Positions 780-9,126 of a stretch of DNA of 64,000 nucleotides are shown here, piece after piece. Origin of the DNA: Paenibacillus sp. W2I17. GTDB taxonomy: Bacteria > Bacillota > Bacilli > Paenibacillales > Paenibacillaceae. Where the stretch lies: assembly GCF_030815985.1 (NCBI RefSeq), contig NZ_JAUSXM010000001.1:1488001-1552000 (forward strand), read 5' to 3'. Position 1 is the stretch's first letter. Every line of letters starts with the position of its first letter. A model generated the notes under the pieces. It was not told where the DNA came from. It was given only the letters and a program-made list of their open reading frames with translations, and did no database searches. Made by a program: the position numbers and the translations under genes.

Positions 780-2867
780 CTATTTCAATGAAATTTCAAA
801 TGTGGAATCCACGTCACCTGCAAATACAATGCGGCCGTTTTCTGGTAAAACAACCTCATTCTTACCGCTGACCACGGTGTGATTAATACAAATACCGTTC
901 TGATCATATACGGCAAAGGCGCCAGTTGCAGGCATTTTAACCGTCATGACTTTTCCTTTCACCGTTGCTGGTATCGAAAACCATCTGGCATATCCGTCTG
1001 CTTGAATCGTTGCTAGAGATTGTTTACCCGAATATAGTGGTTGTACCATTTCCTCACTGGCGTATATGCTACCAACGGCTGTAATGTACTCTACTCCGTT
1101 CTTTTTAGCAAAATAAATCTCCTTTGTATCACGTCCAGCCAGGCCAGGGATTTGCAGCTCCGTGACTGCTTCGTTTGCTCCAATAATCTTAGTATTGGAT
1201 ATATATCCCGGGGTCTCTTTGTCCAAATGAATAGGGAGAATTGGTGCCGAATTGAGATAAACCGTTGATGTATATTTCTCATTCACCAGGTAATATTTTT
1301 TTCCTTCACGCTGCTCCCATGAGGCCGTAATATCCTGGGATAATTCATTGGCTTCCAGCTTCTCCATTTTATATTCGGAGAAAGCCAATTGTCCAAGTCC
1401 TGGCAAGGATATATAAGATCGATACCACAGATAAGTCCTTCCATTCTTCTCCTTAACAAATTTCAACTTTTCCGTGCCTTCATCGTTAACAAAAGTACCA
1501 TCTGCTGTATAGGTGTATTTTTGAGCCGGATCACTTGGAGCTGCGGGTGTGGATACAGTCATTTGTCCAGCAGTATTCATTTCGATCTTCTTAACCGAAT
1601 TATTGCCGCCATATATACCTGCATTCGTGGCTATTTCTTTAGGTATATCTGCCTTCAGGGGCACACCAAACGATTTTTCCGGCTTCCGTTCTGTAATAAT
1701 CCCCTTTTCCTCAAGTGCGCTGAGTAATAATTCACTCGCAATGAACTGATCTTTGGCACTTGTCCCACCTGATGAGGTAACGGCTGCAGCCAGATTATAT
1801 TCCGGCAGTACGACTAATGATGAGTGGTACGATATGGTATCTCCACCTTTTGTTACTGCCTTGATACCGTATTCACTGAATGGGTACAGATTTACACTAT
1901 CCCACCCTAAACCGTAAGATATAGACGTATCGCCATCCTCTGGCCACATGCCTCTTTTATATTCTTCTTGCGCCATGGCTTCTACAGACTTATCGGTAAG
2001 AATGCCTTGGACCTCTCCCGTGAAGATTTGTGAAAACTTCGCAAGATCTTCAGCGGTGGAATAAATGCCTCCAGTAGCGATAACATTATAATTCTCTTGT
2101 GGAAGCTGACCCTCATACAATGGAGAATAGATTCCCGCCATTGCTGCCGTGTCAACCACATCCTGTGGTGTTTTGGTATGTTTCATGTCCAAAGGTTCCG
2201 TAAAATATTGGTGTATAAAAGCTGTAAAACTCATGCCGCTAACACGTTCAACCATAATTTCGGATAACGTAAACCCATCGTTACTATACACGGAGAATGC
2301 GCCGGGATCTGCCTTCAGGTTTTGACTCGCCAATTGCTCGAGAAACGTATCATGTGAGTACGTATCATTATCCCCGTACAATGTGGCATTGCTGCCAGTG
2401 CTGCCCAGCAGACCGGAAGAATGATTCAACAGCATGCGCGGTGTGATTTGTTTGTAGCGATGATCTTTCATCTGAAAATCAGGTATATAGTTCACAACAG
2501 GCAGATCCAAATCCACCTTGCCTTCGTCAACTAACTTCATAACAGAAGCTGTGAGGAACATTTTACTCGTTGATCCTATGCCATAGATTGTATCCGGCGT
2601 AAGAGGCACCTTGTTGTTTTTATCGTTTTTACCCGTCTGACCGGACACCACAATCTCGCCACCATCGATAAGGGCATATTGCAGGCTTGTGATTCCATGT
2701 TTCTCGGTGAGTAACTTGGCTTTCTCCATCACCGTTTTCTTGGTTGGTTCATACGTAAAATCACTGCTACTTGTAGCAGGCGCGGCCATTGCAGACATTG
2801 GAGCTAACATCGTTAATACCAGCGTTAACACGGCGATTGAAGTTCGTTTTCCCTTTTGTCGTCCCAT
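780..2867 (-). CDS. Secreted serine hydrolase, class C beta-lactamase / D,D-peptidase fold
   Basis: A 695-residue protein with a basic N-terminus, a hydrophobic core and an AMAAP-like cleavage region near residue 29, so it is exported. The penicillin-binding fold shows its motifs: STSK at 99-102 (nucleophile Ser99, Lys102), YSN at 194-196, and a KGGDT stretch in the position of the third motif. Family members hydrolyse D-amino-acid peptides or esters rather than necessarily beta-lactams. About 300 further residues follow the roughly 370-residue catalytic domain and look like beta-rich accessory domains seen in long Bacillus/Paenibacillus members of this family. A GGAG site sits 9 bp before the ATG. 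It lies 32 bp after the PAF-acetylhydrolase-like gene and is probably the last gene of a four-hydrolase unit. Confidence 0.85.
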
Positions 2868-2899
2868 TCACATCATCTCCAGAATTTTAAGTGTTTTGG

Positions 2900-4357
2900 T
2901 TATTTGATTTCTTCTGGGTCTACAAATTTCACCTCCGGATACAAGTCATTTGGTCCCTGAATCAGATCTCCACCCGTTCCTTTCAGTTGCTTGTTAAAGA
3001 AATCGAGTACATATTGATTTACGATGTTTGATCCTCTTTTACCATTGATATCTCCTGTGATACCGGACAGTTTAACCAGCTCTGAATAGAACTGAAGGTC
3101 CGTGAAATTGAAGTGCTGGGTTCCTTCTACATAGATCACTTTTCCCCCATGATTCATAACATTTTTCATAATGTGCAGCTCATCTGAAAGAGATTTAGTT
3201 ACTTCATCCTCCGAATTTCTATCTATTTCAAAGTTGGCGAACCAGTCTTCAAAACTTCCCGATCGGATGAACATAAACGGCTTGTTTATATCATCTCTAT
3301 TTTCCACTTCATATAGTGACCCATCCATATTAACCCCGGCCTTGATTCTCTGATCTAAATACGTTGCATTAAACGCGGTTGCACCCCCAAAAGAATGCCC
3401 CATCGCGCCGATGTGATCTAGATCGATTTTCCCTTTAAACTGACTTTCGATTGCACCTGAATTCAGCTTTTCGATTTGATCGATTACAAACTCCACATCT
3501 TTCGTCCATATACTCCCTGTTTTTGTACGTTCATCTAGTGTAGTCGTGCTTTTTTTATAATCCGTTACACGGCCATCTGGAAAAAGAGTAGCAAAGGTGC
3601 TATACGTATGATCGATGGTGACCACGATATACCCATGACTGGCCAGATTCTCGGCCTGTGATACATGTAGAACTCTACTGGTTCCCATACCATGAGATAG
3701 TAGTACCACGGGATAAGGACTTGTAGAAGGTAATATTTCAACATTTTCATAAGAGTTGGTTTGACTATACTTCAAGTAGTCGAGCAAAAATTCGGGCAGT
3801 TTTAAAGAATTAGAGAAGCTCTGAATATACTTTTTGAACATTTCTTTATCTTTTGGAAACAGCGTGTCACGCTTGTTATTATTGCTGTTTTCAGTTGGGT
3901 ACCAAACTTGAACCATTAGTTCTCTCTTATCGCTTTGATCTTCAGTGAAGATTTCGTCTCTGTTCTGATCTGTTAAATGAAATGTTTGAGTACCCACCTT
4001 CTCTGGACCATCAAGCTTCGGCAGATTAAAAACAGGTAAGTATACAGACAAGACGGTAGAACCAACAAGCAGAATAACGATTAAGGAAGATAAACTATAT
4101 TTCAAGAACTTCCCTATTTTAAGGTTCATCATCTTTTCGGAATGTCTGAATAAAACGATGATTATGAATAGAGCCGTCATGATATATACCACAAGCAACT
4201 GCCATCTGTATCCCTCAACAAACAATTGAACTAATAATATAACGCTACTTCCTATACCCAAACCCAAGCCTATTTTCTTTGCACTTCTTTTAATAAATAG
4301 TAGGTCTATGAGTAACGCGAAACAGGATAGAACTAACAGTATCTCAAATAATCTCAA
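2900..4357 (-). CDS. Membrane-anchored alpha/beta hydrolase, PAF-acetylhydrolase II-like
   Basis: This 485-residue protein starts at a TTG preceded by AGAGGA. The first 110 residues carry about four hydrophobic segments, so the enzyme is membrane anchored. The remainder is an alpha/beta hydrolase: an oxyanion region LLSHGMG near 219-225, the nucleophile elbow GHSFGG with Ser322, a probable acid in NMDGS (Asp345) and a probable His415 in TQHFNF. This order matches the platelet-activating-factor acetylhydrolase isoform II family, which cleaves short acyl esters. The physiological substrate is not known. It sits 39 bp downstream of the two hydrolase paralogues and 32 bp upstream of the serine hydrolase, consistent with cotranscription. 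Confidence 0.8.
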   Translation of the reverse strand: MRLFEILLVLSCFALLIDLLFIKRSAKKIGLGLGIGSSVILLVQLFVEGYRWQLLVVYIMTALFIIIVLFRHSEKMMNLKIGKFLKYSLSSLIVILLVGSTVLSVYLPVFNLPKLDGPEKVGTQTFHLTDQNRDEIFTEDQSDKRELMVQVWYPTENSNNNKRDTLFPKDKEMFKKYIQSFSNSLKLPEFLLDYLKYSQTNSYENVEILPSTSPYPVVLLSHGMGTSRVLHVSQAENLASHGYIVVTIDHTYSTFATLFPDGRVTDYKKSTTTLDERTKTGSIWTKDVEFVIDQIEKLNSGAIESQFKGKIDLDHIGAMGHSFGGATAFNATYLDQRIKAGVNMDGSLYEVENRDDINKPFMFIRSGSFEDWFANFEIDRNSEDEVTKSLSDELHIMKNVMNHGGKVIYVEGTQHFNFTDLQFYSELVKLSGITGDINGKRGSNIVNQYVLDFFNKQLKGTGGDLIQGPNDLYPEVKFVDPEEIK

Positions 4358-4396
4358 TTGAATTCCTCTCTCTCAGCACGGACTTTTACAGAATTT

Positions 4397-5380
4397 TTAC
4401 TTCGCTTCGTTCATGAATGCTCTAACATCTTCAGCTATTTCTTTGAATAACGTATGATGCAAGTAATGTTCGCCATCCATGGTGATTACTTTCCCATGTA
4501 CTGAATCTTTGATCTGCCCTTCATGCAGCGGTATCCATCCTTCTACACCTTCATTATTAGCTTGTACAAAGAGAAGAAGTGGAAGGTCTTTAGGGAAGGT
4601 TAATCCTTGGGCTCCTTTAAAATTGGAAGCAATATGGTCCATTTCATTCAAAGTCGTGGAACTGTTCGAGTTTTTATTCGACAGCATTTTCATCTGTTCT
4701 ACGGTATGTTCATCAAATGGGAGTCCCGCATAAGGATCTTCACCAAATTTGACTACTAATCTTTGGAGACCTGATTTTTTAAGAAATGCGAACATTTTTG
4801 TAGGTAACTTGGCATCCATACCCGGTTGTGTTGAAACACTGCTATCAATTCCGACAAATGCCGTGACCTCATCCGGATATTTGTTCACATAATCAATGCC
4901 ATAAATGCCTGCAATGGAGTGACCCATGAGCATGTACTGATGAATATCGAGTTGCTGCAGAGCTTCATGAACTTCACTTACGATATTCTCTGTGGTTCGT
5001 TCTTTTTCAGTCTCATCACTCAATCCATAACCGAATGGTTCAACCGCCACAACTTTGTAATATGGTGATAGTTCGTCAATGAGCAGTTTAAAATCAAGCA
5101 CTGGTGCTGCTGTTCCAAAACCAGGCAGAAGTACAATCGTTTCCTCGCCTTCGCCTTGAATGAGTACATTCATATTTTTCCCGTCTACAGATACATGCTG
5201 ACCATAGGAATCTATTTTCTTGGCCTCTGAATTACTACTGATCACATTGGTGATATAAACAATACCTAGAAATAGAATAATGGCGATTACGATTGCTCCT
5301 ACTATTTTCAGTATCATGTTTCTCACTTTTTTGGCCTTTGATCTATTCTTTGTTTTCTTTTCCGCAGGCTGCGTCGTCAG
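4397..5380 (-). CDS. Membrane-anchored alpha/beta hydrolase, paralogue A (probable CTG start)
   Basis: An alpha/beta hydrolase with an N-terminal membrane anchor, a PGFGTAAP oxyanion region, nucleophile elbow GHSIAG, and a late GEHYLHH stretch providing the His. It is a close tandem paralogue of the gene at 5511-6497. The nearest conventional start, a GTG at 5326, has no Shine-Dalgarno. A CTG at 5380 is preceded by CAGGAG nine bases upstream and gives a 327-residue protein. Its extra residues, ending in KTKNRSKAKKV, line up with QSKSKTKKV of the 328-residue paralogue. I therefore place the start at CTG. If CTG is not used, the protein would be 309 residues from the GTG. The substrate is unknown; the lipase/esterase or peptidase fold alone does not decide it. 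Confidence 0.75.
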   Translation of the reverse strand: MTTQPAEKKTKNRSKAKKVRNMILKIVGAIVIAIILFLGIVYITNVISSNSEAKKIDSYGQHVSVDGKNMNVLIQGEGEETIVLLPGFGTAAPVLDFKLLIDELSPYYKVVAVEPFGYGLSDETEKERTTENIVSEVHEALQQLDIHQYMLMGHSIAGIYGIDYVNKYPDEVTAFVGIDSSVSTQPGMDAKLPTKMFAFLKKSGLQRLVVKFGEDPYAGLPFDEHTVEQMKMLSNKNSNSSTTLNEMDHIASNFKGAQGLTFPKDLPLLLFVQANNEGVEGWIPLHEGQIKDSVHGKVITMDGEHYLHHTLFKEIAEDVRAFMNEAK

Positions 5381-5462
5381 TGTTATCTTCTCCTGTCTTG
5401 AACTGATAGTTCGATTGTCTTTTTTGCTGCTAATGAAATCTTATCCAATGAAAATGTACTCC

Positions 5463-5491
5463 CCGTGACGTCAATATGAACTGAATATGAA
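5463..5491 (-). promoter_or_regulatory. Three 11-bp-spaced half-sites upstream of hydrolase A
   Basis: Read on the minus strand, TTCATAT begins at 5491, TTCATAT at 5480 and GTCAC at 5469, an exact 11-bp period, followed by GGGGAGTACAT. The same arrangement stands before the paralogue. Direct repeats of about 7 bp every 11 bp are the known binding geometry of OmpR/PhoB-family regulators. Assignment to the nearby regulator (8082-8756) is inference. A TAAGAT hexamer further downstream could be the -10 box. Confidence 0.6.
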
Positions 5492-5510
5492 CAAGCCAAT
5501 TCATTTATCT

Positions 5511-6497
5511 TTACTGCTGCGTCATAAATCCCCTGAATTTTTCAGCAATTTCTTTGGGATGGGAACGATACAAATAATGATTTGCTTCCAGCAGCACCAC
5601 TTCACCACGCACAGATTTCTCTATTAATTTCTCGTGTTCCGGAACCCAATTGTCTGCTGCCGGATGATTCTTTTGAACAAAGAAAAGAACCGGGAGATTG
5701 ACAGGCAGCGTCAGCTGTTCAGCTGTTTTAAAGTTGGCATACATACTCTCTGCCTCATTTAATTGAGTGGTATTATACATATTTTTGCGTATCAGAATGT
5801 TCAATTGTTCTTTTGTTTGCTCATCATAAGGCAGTCCATCATAAGGGTCAGCACTCAGTTTCAGTTGCACTCGGGCGAAGCCTAAGTTGCGGAACCATTT
5901 AATCGGTTGTGTATCTGAGGAATCAATCTTCTGTTCACTTATCGCTGGAACACTGCTATCCAGCCCAACATATGCACTTATTTCATCTGCATACTTGTTC
6001 ACGTAATCCAGGCTATAGATCCCCGAAATGGAATGACCCATGAGGATATAACGATCAATATGTAGACGCTGTAACGCTTCATGAATTTCACTGACGATAT
6101 TTGCTGTGCTACGTTCCTTTTCGGTCTGATCACTCAATCCGTAACCAAAGGGCTCAACAACGACAACTTTATAATATGGAGATAACTCGGAGATAAGAGG
6201 TTTAAAATCAAGCGCTGGTGCCGCTGTTCCAAAACCAGGCAGAAGCACAATCGTTTCCTCGCCTTTGCCTTGAATGAACACATTCATATTTTTTCCGTCT
6301 ACGGATACATGTTGACCATATGGTTCCATTCTTTTTTGCTCCGAATAACTGCTGATTTTATTGACGGTATATACGATAGCTACAAAAAGTAAGATTGCTA
6401 CAATGATTGCGCAAAGTACTTTAAACAAAATGTTTAACACTTTCTTGGTTTTGCTTTTACTCTGGACTTCTTTGTCTGCTTGTAGTTTCACATTCAT
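5511..6497 (-). CDS. Membrane-anchored alpha/beta hydrolase, paralogue B
   Basis: A 328-residue protein with a short basic N-terminus, one membrane-spanning segment at about 22-46, and an alpha/beta hydrolase domain outside or at the membrane. Visible motifs are PGFGTAAP (oxyanion side), the nucleophile elbow GHSISG, and EANHYLYRSHP near the C-terminus supplying the catalytic His. Long stretches are identical to paralogue A, for example the VSVDGKNMNV region, so the pair arose by tandem duplication that included the promoter region. The ATG has GGAG four to five bases upstream. The substrate is not evident. It is likely the first gene of the hydrolase operon, 73 bp downstream of its own regulator half-sites. 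Confidence 0.85.
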   Translation of the reverse strand: MNVKLQADKEVQSKSKTKKVLNILFKVLCAIIVAILLFVAIVYTVNKISSYSEQKRMEPYGQHVSVDGKNMNVFIQGKGEETIVLLPGFGTAAPALDFKPLISELSPYYKVVVVEPFGYGLSDQTEKERSTANIVSEIHEALQRLHIDRYILMGHSISGIYSLDYVNKYADEISAYVGLDSSVPAISEQKIDSSDTQPIKWFRNLGFARVQLKLSADPYDGLPYDEQTKEQLNILIRKNMYNTTQLNEAESMYANFKTAEQLTLPVNLPVLFFVQKNHPAADNWVPEHEKLIEKSVRGEVVLLEANHYLYRSHPKEIAEKFRGFMTQQ

Positions 6498-6569
6498 CTG
6501 CTCCTATCCTCATCTGTATATTGGCCTGGCAGGCTGCTTAAGAAATCCTAATCAAGAAAGATGTACTCC

Positions 6570-6598
6570 CCATGACCGGAATATGAATGGAGTATGAA
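6570..6598 (-). promoter_or_regulatory. Three 11-bp-spaced half-sites upstream of hydrolase B
   Basis: Read on the minus strand, TTCATAC begins at 6598, TTCATAT at 6587 and GTCATGG at 6576, again an 11-bp period, then GGGGAGTACAT. It matches the block at 5463-5491 in spacing and in most bases. It is a probable binding site of an OmpR/PhoB-type response regulator, the adjacent two-component system being the obvious candidate. A TAGGAT hexamer lies downstream as a possible -10. Confidence 0.6.
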
Positions 6599-6603
6599 CA
6601 AGC

Positions 6604-6656
6604 AAAAAAAATGTCCTATGTAACATACAAGGAAGCTTGCATGTTACATAGGACAT
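6604..6656 (-). terminator. Intrinsic terminator of the two-component operon
   Basis: A perfect 16-bp inverted repeat (6611-6626 with 6641-6656, loop 14) is followed on the minus strand by a run of seven to eight T. It lies 58 bp below the histidine kinase stop and directly above the hydrolase B promoter block, so the two-component genes and the hydrolases are separate transcription units. Confidence 0.9.
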
Positions 6657-6714
6657 GAACATTCGGTTTAGATAATCCGATGGATATTCTATTCATTGAC
6701 CCTATCCTGTGAGC

Positions 6715-8085
6715 CTAACTATCCGTTGGTGGATGGATGGGCAACGTGACAATAAAGGTCGTGCCTTGACCAGGTTCGCTTTCCACTCGGATGTCACCCT
6801 GATGAAGGGACACGATCTGTTTAACGATAGCAAGTCCCATACCACTCCCGTCATATTTGCGGCTGTGGGAACGATCTGCCTTGAAAAAACGGTCGAATAT
6901 ACGCTTCTGATCTTCCAGGGGAATTCCAATGCCCGTGTCGGATATTCGAACAGTCACATTTTTGAAGTCCTCTTCGATACTGACTTTAATCATACCGCCA
7001 TCCTCGGAAAACTTGATGCTATTTCCGATGATGTTTGTCCATACCTGATTTAACTGATCGTGATCAGCCGTTACCTTCACGTTCTCCAAATCAAGCTCGA
7101 AATGAATGTTGCGCCCAGACCATTGAGGCTGAAGCGCAACGATGACCCGCCTGATCTGTTCATCAAGGCTTAAGGTGGTGAGCCGTAGTTGCTGTGACTG
7201 CGATTCAAGCAAACTCAGCTTGAGCAGGCTATCGCTCATTTTGGACATTCTTTTTGCTTCTGAGATGATAATATCCAGGTAACGGTTTCGCTCTTGTTCT
7301 GAGAGATTTACTTGCTTCAGTGCCGAAGCGTAACCGGATATCGAGGTGAGCGGAGACTGAACCTCATGCGAAACATTGGTAACGAATTCCCTGCGCATCT
7401 GCTCCAGCTGCTGCAGATCATGCATCATTTCTTCAAAGCTGCGGGCCAATGTACCAATCTCCGTCGTTTGTTTAATGTTCAGCTTGACGTTGAAATCTCC
7501 AGCTGCAATCCGTTTGGTCGCTTTGGTCAATTTTTTGATCGGTCTAACCAGATATACAGAAGCAACCAGGATTAACAAACTTCCTGTCATCAACGAACAG
7601 GTTGCAAAGATTAAGCCCCATTTGACCACAAAAGTGGCTGAGGGTGGTGAGAGTATTTCCAAAAACATCGCTTTTGTTCCCATCTCCGTCTTCAACGGTA
7701 ACCCCAAGAGCACTGTACCAATCCCATCCCTGGTGTCTTGTACAACGCCTCCAGCTAATACTTTCTTTAGTTGCTCACTCGTCACAACAGCCGACTTATG
7801 TCCGTTAGTCTTTCCATAGGTTGTGAACTGTCCCGTAGCTTCGTAAATTCGAATATGATAGGAATTGAGCTGCTTCATTCCACTTACATACAAGTCCGCT
7901 TCACGTAAAGGCAGGGTCTTATAGATCTGCACAACGTCTTGGCCAAAATTACGCAAGTTAATTTGAGCGTTTTGGTTCAATTTGTCCTCAAATATCCAGG
8001 TAGACAAAAAAAATGAAATGACCGTACCAGCGATAACAGACCCCAGAAAGGTCAGAACCACACGAATATATATGGATCGGATCAT
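6715..8085 (-). CDS. Sensor histidine kinase (HAMP, HisKA, HATPase_c)
   Basis: This 456-residue kinase has two membrane segments (about 8-30 and 153-178) that frame an extracytoplasmic sensor region of about 120 residues. A HAMP domain follows (about 180-232), then the dimerisation and phosphoacceptor helix with His240 in NVSHEVQSPL, an N box (NQVWTNIIGNS), a G1 box (DTGIGIP) and a G2 box (GSGMGLA). It autophosphorylates His240 and passes the phosphate to the partner regulator. Its start overlaps the regulator stop by 4 bp (ATGA), so the pair is translationally coupled. The signal is unknown; the sensor domain has no obvious cofactor motif. The neighbouring exported hydrolases suggest an envelope or extracellular signal, which is inference. 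Confidence 0.92.
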   Translation of the reverse strand: MIRSIYIRVVLTFLGSVIAGTVISFFLSTWIFEDKLNQNAQINLRNFGQDVVQIYKTLPLREADLYVSGMKQLNSYHIRIYEATGQFTTYGKTNGHKSAVVTSEQLKKVLAGGVVQDTRDGIGTVLLGLPLKTEMGTKAMFLEILSPPSATFVVKWGLIFATCSLMTGSLLILVASVYLVRPIKKLTKATKRIAAGDFNVKLNIKQTTEIGTLARSFEEMMHDLQQLEQMRREFVTNVSHEVQSPLTSISGYASALKQVNLSEQERNRYLDIIISEAKRMSKMSDSLLKLSLLESQSQQLRLTTLSLDEQIRRVIVALQPQWSGRNIHFELDLENVKVTADHDQLNQVWTNIIGNSIKFSEDGGMIKVSIEEDFKNVTVRISDTGIGIPLEDQKRIFDRFFKADRSHSRKYDGSGMGLAIVKQIVSLHQGDIRVESEPGQGTTFIVTLPIHPPTDS

Positions 8086-8756
8086 TCATAGACCTCAAGT
8101 CTGTACCCTAGCCCACGCACCGTTTCAATCCGAAAATCAGGTGTTGTCGCGAATCGTTCGCGCAGGCGTTTAATATGTACGTCTATTGTTCGATCATCTC
8201 CCGCGTAATCAATACCCCATATCTGATCGATTAATTGCTCACGTGTATAGACTTGTCCTGGTGTTCCAGCAAGCTTATACAGCAATTCGAACTCCTTAAG
8301 TGGTAACGTAAGCGACTCCGTGCCTCTCATCACCTTATACGTCTGACGGTCCAGAATGACGTTGCCAAACTGGATTGTATGTGTGGAGCCGATTTTGTAT
8401 CGTTTCAGTAATGCTCGGACACGAGCGGTCAGCTCTAATGGATCAAACGGTTTGGTCAAATAATCATCCGTACCCAGTTCGAACCCTTTAACCTTCTCCC
8501 AAGTCTCTCCTCTCGCCGTCAGCATGAGTAACGGGAGGTCGGGATTGGCTCTTCGGAGTTCTTTGCACAGTGCCCAACCGTCCATGACAGGCATCATAAT
8601 ATCAAGGACGACCAGATCTACTGGAGTTTCGCCATATATAGTGAGAGCTTCCTTACCGTCCGCAGCTTCCACTGTTGTGAATCCATCGTTTTTGAGAAAT
8701 AGACAGACGAGTTCACGAATGTTCGCATCGTCGTCTGCAACGAGTATAGTAGCCAT
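8082..8756 (-). CDS. Two-component response regulator, OmpR/PhoB family
   Basis: The 224-residue protein has a receiver domain with the acidic pocket DDD at 8-10, phosphoacceptor Asp52 in VVLDIMMP, a conserved Thr (MLTARG) and Lys (LTKPFDP). A winged-helix DNA-binding domain follows, with the recognition helix region DRTIDVHIKRLRERF near the C-terminus. Phosphorylated dimers of this family bind direct repeats spaced 11 bp. Such repeats stand before both hydrolase paralogues at 6570-6598 and 5463-5491, but not evidently before this gene. The ATG follows GGAGAGGA. It is the first gene of the two-gene operon. Confidence 0.93.
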   Translation of the reverse strand: MATILVADDDANIRELVCLFLKNDGFTTVEAADGKEALTIYGETPVDLVVLDIMMPVMDGWALCKELRRANPDLPLLMLTARGETWEKVKGFELGTDDYLTKPFDPLELTARVRALLKRYKIGSTHTIQFGNVILDRQTYKVMRGTESLTLPLKEFELLYKLAGTPGQVYTREQLIDQIWGIDYAGDDRTIDVHIKRLRERFATTPDFRIETVRGLGYRLEVYE

Positions 8757-8829
8757 ATGTTTTTTCTGTCCTCTCCGTTACGTTTAAATATATAGTCCAA
8801 CTAGTATAGTAAATATTAAAACATCTTGC

Positions 8830-9084
8830 TTATAGTATATCCACAGCAAACATCGTATGTTCTTTCAACGTTCCCTGGATTGGCACAGGCTGTGACCCAT
8901 TCTCCTTGAAACCTGCTTTTTGAAGGACACGGATGGAACCTGTATTATCGGGCACAGCGCCAGCTTCGATTCGAGTAATTTCAGTTTCGTGTTTGGCAAA
9001 TTCCAGTATAAGATCCAGAAGCAATGCGGCATCATCCACATTCCAAAATCTCACATAGATACGTTCTGCACTATATTTCATCAC
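8830..9084 (-). pseudogene. Acetyltransferase (GNAT, RimJ/RimL-like) remnant with internal deletion
   Basis: The 84-residue frame joins an N-terminal GNAT beginning (ERIYVRFWNVDDAALLLDL) directly to the C-terminal end of a RimJ/RimL-type acetyltransferase, with RIEAGAVPDNTGSIRVL and KAGF followed by LKEHTMFAVDIL. Intact family members are about 175-190 residues and carry the acetyl-CoA loop (motif A) between these parts. That loop is missing here, so the product cannot be an active N-acetyltransferase in the usual way. The frame is still open, which points to a single in-frame deletion of roughly 90-100 codons rather than slow decay. It stands alone between the response regulator and a TetR gene. 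Confidence 0.65.
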
Positions 9085-9126
9085 ATTATCCCTCCTCTAT
9101 TAACGTTAGGTGCAATTGTAGCATGA

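Follow-up and report, generated by a model that had tools for sequence, protein, structure and literature searches.

A four-half-site direct-repeat operator before hydrolase genes of Paenibacillus, very likely controlled by a neighbouring two-component system

We analysed a stretch of 64,000 nucleotides from Paenibacillus sp. W2I17 (the window; contig NZ_JAUSXM010000001.1, positions 1,488,001 to 1,552,000), in which two similar blocks of direct repeats precede two paralogous alpha/beta hydrolase genes, here called hydA and hydB. Judged by sequence comparison, the blocks are very likely OmpR/PhoB-type operators controlled by the neighbouring two-component system, whose binding is predicted. The features are listed below, with position weight matrix (PWM) scores for the operators; L and G numbers denote loci and genomes, respectively.

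6560..6598, minus strand: operator A, TTCATA-CTCCA-TTCATA-TTCCG-GTCATG-GGGAG-TACATC, four half-sites at 11-bp spacing, PWM 52.8 bits
6545..6550, minus strand: putative -10 box TAGGAT, 9 bp past operator A (offset 48-53; T-A....T near invariant in 109 operators)
5453..5491, minus strand: operator B, TTCATA-TTCAG-TTCATA-TTGAC-GTCACG-GGGAG-TACATT, PWM 62.8 bits
5438..5443, minus strand: putative -10 box TAAGAT, 9 bp past operator B (offset 48-53)
8082..8756, minus strand: response regulator of the OmpR/PhoB type, receiver plus winged helix, 224 aa (Pfam PF00072, 103.7 bits; PF00486, Trans_reg_C, 85.5 bits)
6715..8085, minus strand: sensor histidine kinase, 456 aa, with an extracytoplasmic PDC/PAS-like sensor domain at residues about 30-152
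6612..6655, minus strand: intrinsic-terminator-like hairpin (20 pairs counted, then T8), after the kinase gene, between the two-component operon and the hydA promoter
5511..6497, minus strand: hydA, alpha/beta hydrolase with an N-terminal membrane helix (read from the sequence), 328 aa (Pfam Abhydrolase_6/1)
4397..5326, minus strand: hydB, alpha/beta hydrolase paralogue (Pfam), 57% identical to hydA, frame open further upstream
2900..4357, minus strand: PAF-acetylhydrolase-II-like hydrolase with N-terminal membrane helices, 485 aa (PF03403, E 1.3e-35)
780..2867, minus strand: SerH, secreted S12 (beta-lactamase-like) serine hydrolase, 695 aa (PF00144; matches PDB 9sn1 over residues 38-694)

Both blocks have the consensus TTCATA-N5-TTCATA-N5-GTCAYG-N5-TACATY and end 9 bp ahead of a TAnnnT -10 box; they are thus head-to-tail direct repeats with the 10- to 11-bp period of OmpR/PhoB-type operators. 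That matching half-site blocks precede both hydrolase paralogues had already been noticed in the original prediction, correctly, together with a common GGGGAGTACAT continuation, which is indeed present. The 11-bp period also held, but each block has four half-sites and not three. Over 109 non-redundant operators, drawn from 200 distinct operator contexts in the fetched loci, a half-site model gave 10.6 bits at offset 0, 11.3 at 11, -0.5 at 22 and -1.3 at 33, the next best offset being 39 (-6.0 bits) and the remaining ones -11 or lower. The peaks at 0, 11, 22 and 33 therefore identify the GGGGAGTACAT continuation as the fourth half-site. In the same set, the -10 box TAnnnT at offset 48 has frequencies of 1.00 for its T, 0.99 for its A and 0.99 for its last T, and it is visible through conservation alone. 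No -35 box is apparent at the blocks, and an ordinary sigma-70 promoter was rejected there, as a consensus scan of positions 4300-9100 lists none at either block (10 sites versus 9.9 in shuffles).

The hexamer pair TTCATA-N5-TTCATA is exact at 5475-5491 and 6582-6598 on the minus strand. Allowing up to one mismatch, the window holds two matches, where chance gives 0.71 on average and 15 of 100 shuffles have at least as many, and by themselves two hexamers would be weak evidence inside 64 kb. The genome-wide search for arrays was run with a longer pattern, TTCATAYTCNNTTCATAYTCNNGTCA, and returned, at up to 3 mismatches, 4 places in the 7.0-Mb genome and 0 for the reversed pattern, which puts the operator far beyond chance. 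These four are both blocks of the window plus two operators outside it, one (L002) before a third alpha/beta hydrolase paralogue and the other (L004) before a secreted serine hydrolase that is a paralogue of the window gene at 780-2867. The three operator-bearing alpha/beta hydrolases are the sole ones found in the genome with more than 50% identity to hydA, the next reaching 29%. A relaxed pattern, TTCATNNTCNNTTCATNNTNNNGTCA, matched 44 places at 3 mismatches, versus 18 for its reversed control; besides the 4 operators, 26 of the 40 other places were scored, and all fell below 0 bits.

The same operator is found across relatives. The PWM was trained on 65 pattern-derived sites in 59 loci; since most of these loci had been selected because they contain sites, the counts obtained in them are circular. 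Left out as regions, from the genomes of the training loci, are five 3-mismatch matches (G006, G044, G045, G050, G060) and two of G072. A scan of named genomes gave 80 loci selected by the kinase alone, some of them from genomes also used in training, which show the neighbourhood of the system only. They belong mainly to Paenibacillus, with others from Cohnella, Lysinibacillus, Viridibacillus, Sporosarcina, Peribacillus, Cytobacillus and Fontibacillus; outside the genus, operators were read mostly near the system. An operator above 28 bits is present in 77 of the 80 (exceptions L229, L232 and L258), and within 1.5 Mb these loci contain 140 PWM hits above 8 bits, the reversed PWM giving 0.

Among the 200 operators, 196 precede sequence of three hydrolase families (alpha/beta hydrolase 152, S12 serine hydrolase 40, PAF-acetylhydrolase-like 4), one precedes the regulator gene and three none of these; the tally counts sequence similarity, decayed targets included (at L107, just 32 SerH residues align). 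Three of the four exceptions look like relics: L224 and L225 resemble decayed or deleted SerH genes, and L252 (28.9 bits, degenerate half-sites) resembles a relic leader, while L266 is unexplained. As a side observation, L102 (7937, G015) and L208 (10495) carry an orphan operator directly upstream of the hydB operator, with no hydA found there, perhaps a promoter left after gene loss. The products of the target genes probably act outside the membrane, judging by N-terminal membrane helices or a signal peptide read by eye.

Which regulator reads the operator was addressed by co-occurrence. In 75 genomes of the genus, where a match meant the pattern within 3 mismatches and presence meant the regulator at 82% or more and the kinase at 66% or more, regulator and kinase were both found in the same 51 genomes. 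All 51 carry an operator match, versus 8 of the 24 without the system, and in those eight there is one match each, at 3 mismatches. Six of the eight were scored (G046 and G063 are not among them): L030 and L031, from G010 and G011, reach 53.3 bits, and L038, L039, L040 and L043 fall below 0. In G010 and G011, where the system is absent, the operators are full-length, have a -10 box (L096 about 9807, minus strand; L097 about 4239, plus strand) and stand before a decayed hydrolase remnant, as if the target gene had decayed after regulator loss, which may be the case. A hydrolase homologue is present in G018 (53%) and in G023 (41%), both of them without the system and without an operator match.

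The comparison was repeated over 295 genomes of the family, with the kinase at E 1e-150 or better and the operator match within 2 mismatches. A match was found in 125 of 130 genomes with the kinase versus 13 of 165 without it (odds ratio about 290). Some of this co-occurrence is linkage. Nevertheless, the operator also tracks the system when both are unlinked, as in four genomes (G022, G034, G047, G072; L105, L112, L122, L139) with no target gene found near the system and hydrolases elsewhere that carry the operator; the case of G072 was read from side-by-side coordinates of sites and hydrolases. The recognition helix RT[IV]DVHIKRLRE is present in 72 of 81 regulator orthologues of named loci, with one or two changes in the other 9. 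The prediction of regulation by a nearby OmpR/PhoB-type member thus held up in operator type, spacing and co-occurrence, its closed circuit (see below) excepted. The regulator gene had been placed less than 2.3 kb away; measured from the first block it is about 1.5 kb distant, and from the second 2.6 kb.

A connection to lipopeptides comes from SerH. The window protein aligns over residues 38-694 to residues 3-660 of PDB 9sn1 (1019.6 bits), i.e., over its full length. This structure is 100% identical, over 306 compared residues, to the SerH of L118 (180-2285, minus strand), a contig of Paenibacillus sp. SZ31, whose orthologue in our genome is the L004/L010 serine hydrolase (95%). Judging by the strain and the field of one author, 9sn1 may be Lip3 or Lip7, i.e., one of the published DL-peptidases. 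The L118 gene carries the operator, and SZ31 has this two-component system plus five operator matches within 3 mismatches, which stand before hydA, PAFAH-SerH, a second SerH, hydC and the 9sn1 gene (G040). Syringafactin is reported to induce the DL-peptidases Lip3 and Lip7 in this strain (Zhang et al. 2021 and 2026, as cited in a review and a commentary, PMC10928948 and PMC13188892). By analogy, the S12 serine hydrolases are presumably of DL-peptidase type, with lipopeptide cleavage as their predicted activity.

Putting this together, we propose that the adjacent two-component system responds to lipopeptides and runs the extracytoplasmic hydrolases through the blocks, as its activator operators; we give this reading a probability of ca. 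60%. The signal for the PDC/PAS-like extracytoplasmic domain of the kinase would be an external amphiphile, with a lipopeptide or the membrane effect of one as the most likely candidate; the kinase would then phosphorylate the PhoB-type regulator. The latter would bind the four 11-bp-spaced half-sites as tandem head-to-tail dimers, near-perfect upstream (TTCATA) and weaker downstream (GTCAYG, TACATY), where they would stand in for the missing -35 box. Membrane-anchored alpha/beta hydrolases, the PAF-acetylhydrolase-like enzyme and the DL-peptidase-type S12 serine hydrolases would thereby be switched on and could degrade lipopeptides at ester and DL-amide bonds. The operator anatomy, its conservation, the genes behind it, its co-occurrence with the system and the identity of 9sn1 (306 residues) to an operator-bearing gene product of SZ31 are seen in the sequences; regulator binding, activation, the inducer and the substrates of the alpha/beta hydrolases are inferred. 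In a broader version, which seems to us evenly poised between true and false, a system widespread in Bacillales would be devoted to sensing lipopeptides of foreign origin and, by way of a single rigid four-half-site operator, would control a regulon of several enzymes that disarms or remodels the lipopeptides of neighbours.

Several observations weigh against the proposal, some concerning the signal and others the regulator. As to the signal, the lipopeptide substrate is only presumed for the alpha/beta hydrolases that follow 152 of the 200 operators, and the system could in reality be answering to membrane stress or to a non-peptide ester. It is accordingly possible, if rather unlikely, that operator and regulon are as described and the system answers to envelope or cell-wall stress, a non-lipopeptide ester or an antibiotic, with lipopeptide cleavage as one use among others. 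Against this alternative stand the three hydrolase families behind 196 of 200 operators (loci were chosen by kinase or operator pattern, and other targets may be missed). The enzyme of the 9sn1 structure, which comes from SZ31, a strain in which a lipopeptide induces peptidases, belongs to one of these families.

As to the regulator, 5 of the 130 kinase-bearing family genomes lack a site within 2 mismatches, and 13 of the 165 kinase-less ones have one. Eight of these 13 were scored, seven of them at 20.5 bits or less. The low-scoring site of L149 adjoins a two-component system of 64% regulator identity; at L154, which scores 58.3 bits, just 81 residues of hydrolase align behind the operator. 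Furthermore, L102 holds a paralogue of the system, with 59% identity in the regulator, 41% in the kinase and an unchanged recognition helix, RTIDVHIKRLRE. This paralogue follows ABC transporter genes that are preceded by a TTCATA-TTCAG-TTCATA pair (about 1010-4806, G015), and in the kinase-less genome G299 the array TTCATA-TTCAG-TTCATA-N5-GTCATA stands before an ABC transporter gene (L143, about 1500-3025). The hexamer pair may therefore be shared by several related regulators. What tracks this two-component system is the full 39-bp operator, and with the four-half-site PWM the L102 array stays below 14 bits and the L143 array at most at 11.

One could go further and suppose that another OmpR/PhoB-type regulator reads the operator, alone or additionally, the neighbouring system being linked by gene neighbourhood only. 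There is no shortage of such regulators (117 candidates at first look in G000), and the L102 paralogue and the second copy of the whole system in some genomes point the same way. We nevertheless consider this improbable, given that the operator follows this system across the 295 family genomes, also when unlinked from its targets, that in G010 and G011, without the system, the sole operator found precedes a decayed hydrolase, and that the L102 and L143 arrays score so low.

The second copy (L087 8979-14343, L103, L119, L136; regulator 85%, kinase about 71-72%) lies a few kb from the first, and a SerH is preceded there by a separate, variant operator, TTCATC...TTCATG. In L087, L103 and L119, the three that were read, the recognition helix is the same as in the first copy, which makes cross-regulation between the two copies likely; co-divergence of the second system with its variant operator was dropped on this ground. 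Matches of type TTCATATTCAGTTCATAATNNNGTCA recur in G214, G227, G248, G275 and G299, and the TTCATA pairs before ABC transporter genes perhaps represent a sister regulon for export.

The original prediction had also concluded that promoter and gene were evidently duplicated together, which comparison of the four promoters of our genome did not support. The 39-bp operators are 0.72-0.82 identical, and the flanks 0.17-0.42, i.e., near random. The operators of the hydrolases are 0.77-0.82 identical to each other, and that of the non-homologous serine hydrolase is about as similar to them (0.72-0.77; 0.77 to hydA). The shared operator is thus poor evidence for copying of promoter plus gene; selection on the operator would account for these data no less well and seems the simpler reading. 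That the blocks are alike only through a recent tandem duplication, as repeats without a regulatory role, fits the adjacency and 57% identity of hydA and hydB, yet is very improbable and already contradicted by conservation, as the flanks have diverged around a preserved operator that also precedes non-homologous serine hydrolases and occurs in several genera.

Nor is there support for the small closed circuit that had been suggested. The region upstream of the regulator gene has no operator (best PWM -33.9 bits in our genome; absent in 80 of 81 relatives), so that autoregulation through this operator is not indicated, and there are two further, unlinked regulon members. The exception is P. 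lautus (L225, 8103), in which a SerH operator lies 227 bp before the regulator gene and is followed by a scrap of the C-terminus of a serine hydrolase. The arrangement looks like a deletion scar, and the system could have become autoregulated in this strain.

The regulatory device is of a known kind, an OmpR/PhoB-type direct-repeat operator. In the pho boxes of E. coli, the downstream repeat takes the place of a -35 box and stops about 10 bp ahead of the -10 box. PhoB with its pho box and Bacillus PhoP resemble the present case in the 11-bp direct repeats for a winged-helix regulator; unlike in their operators, the half-sites here are TTCATA/GTCAYG/TACATY, four in fixed number, and the targets are extracytoplasmic hydrolases. 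The Bacillus subtilis YclJ operator is a direct repeat, TTCATANTTT, with the same core hexamer as here. M. tuberculosis PhoP reads 7-bp motifs that are directly repeated across a 4-bp spacer (PMC4832192). Our regulator scores below the NCBIfam cut-offs of both the PhoB equivalog TIGR02154 (216.2 bits; cut-off 296.2) and the WalR/YycF equivalog NF040534 (192 bits; cut-off 340), and the best match of its DNA-binding domain is RegX3 (2oqr), followed by, among others, WalR/YycF and PhoB chains such as 3t72 and 1gxp.

The value of the case is that it connects a conserved operator with enzymes that probably degrade lipopeptides; among the papers listed, no description of operator or regulon was found, which is a weak negative. 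With regard to the Lip3/Lip7 peptidases of Paenibacillus, SZ31 has the two-component system and the operators, and the regulator, the operator and further members are proposed here. Lipopeptide lactone hydrolases such as SfhA of Streptomyces Mg1 open ester bonds of cyclic lipopeptides (PMC13188892, PMC4976088), and by this described activity they are a possible parallel for the alpha/beta and PAF-acetylhydrolase-like members. If true, the broader version of our proposal would supply the missing regulatory link in the interaction of syringafactin, Paenibacillus and amoebae. Sensing the lipopeptide of another species and inducing enzymes that cleave it would bear on microbial chemical ecology and on the uneven success of biocontrol. 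In any event, the analysis yields a candidate regulator, an operator consensus and a target list readable from many Bacillales genomes, including probable new lipopeptide-cleaving enzymes.

Some features of the locus itself deserve mention. The kinase frame overlaps the end of the regulator gene at 8082-8085, and the regulator-kinase pair is conserved. The hairpin at 6612..6655 separates the kinase gene from hydA; it has the longest stem of 5 terminator-like sites found (3.6 in shuffles) and folds at -31.7 kcal/mol (z -9.9). hydA and hydB have one operator each, and the PAF-acetylhydrolase-like gene and SerH, which follow hydB after short gaps, are probably co-transcribed with it. A fold search with the sensor domain showed a PDC/PAS-like fold and pointed to no ligand, the structure model of the full-length kinase being poor (pLDDT 68). 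With regard to anti-phage defence, the four enzymes have no PADLOC match. Finally, hydB has no ATG, GTG or TTG start where its relatives have it (5326-5401, minus strand). The listed GTG start at 5326 drops a Lys-rich N-terminus, and an in-frame CTG at 5380, which follows an AGGAG resembling a ribosome-binding site, may be the true start.
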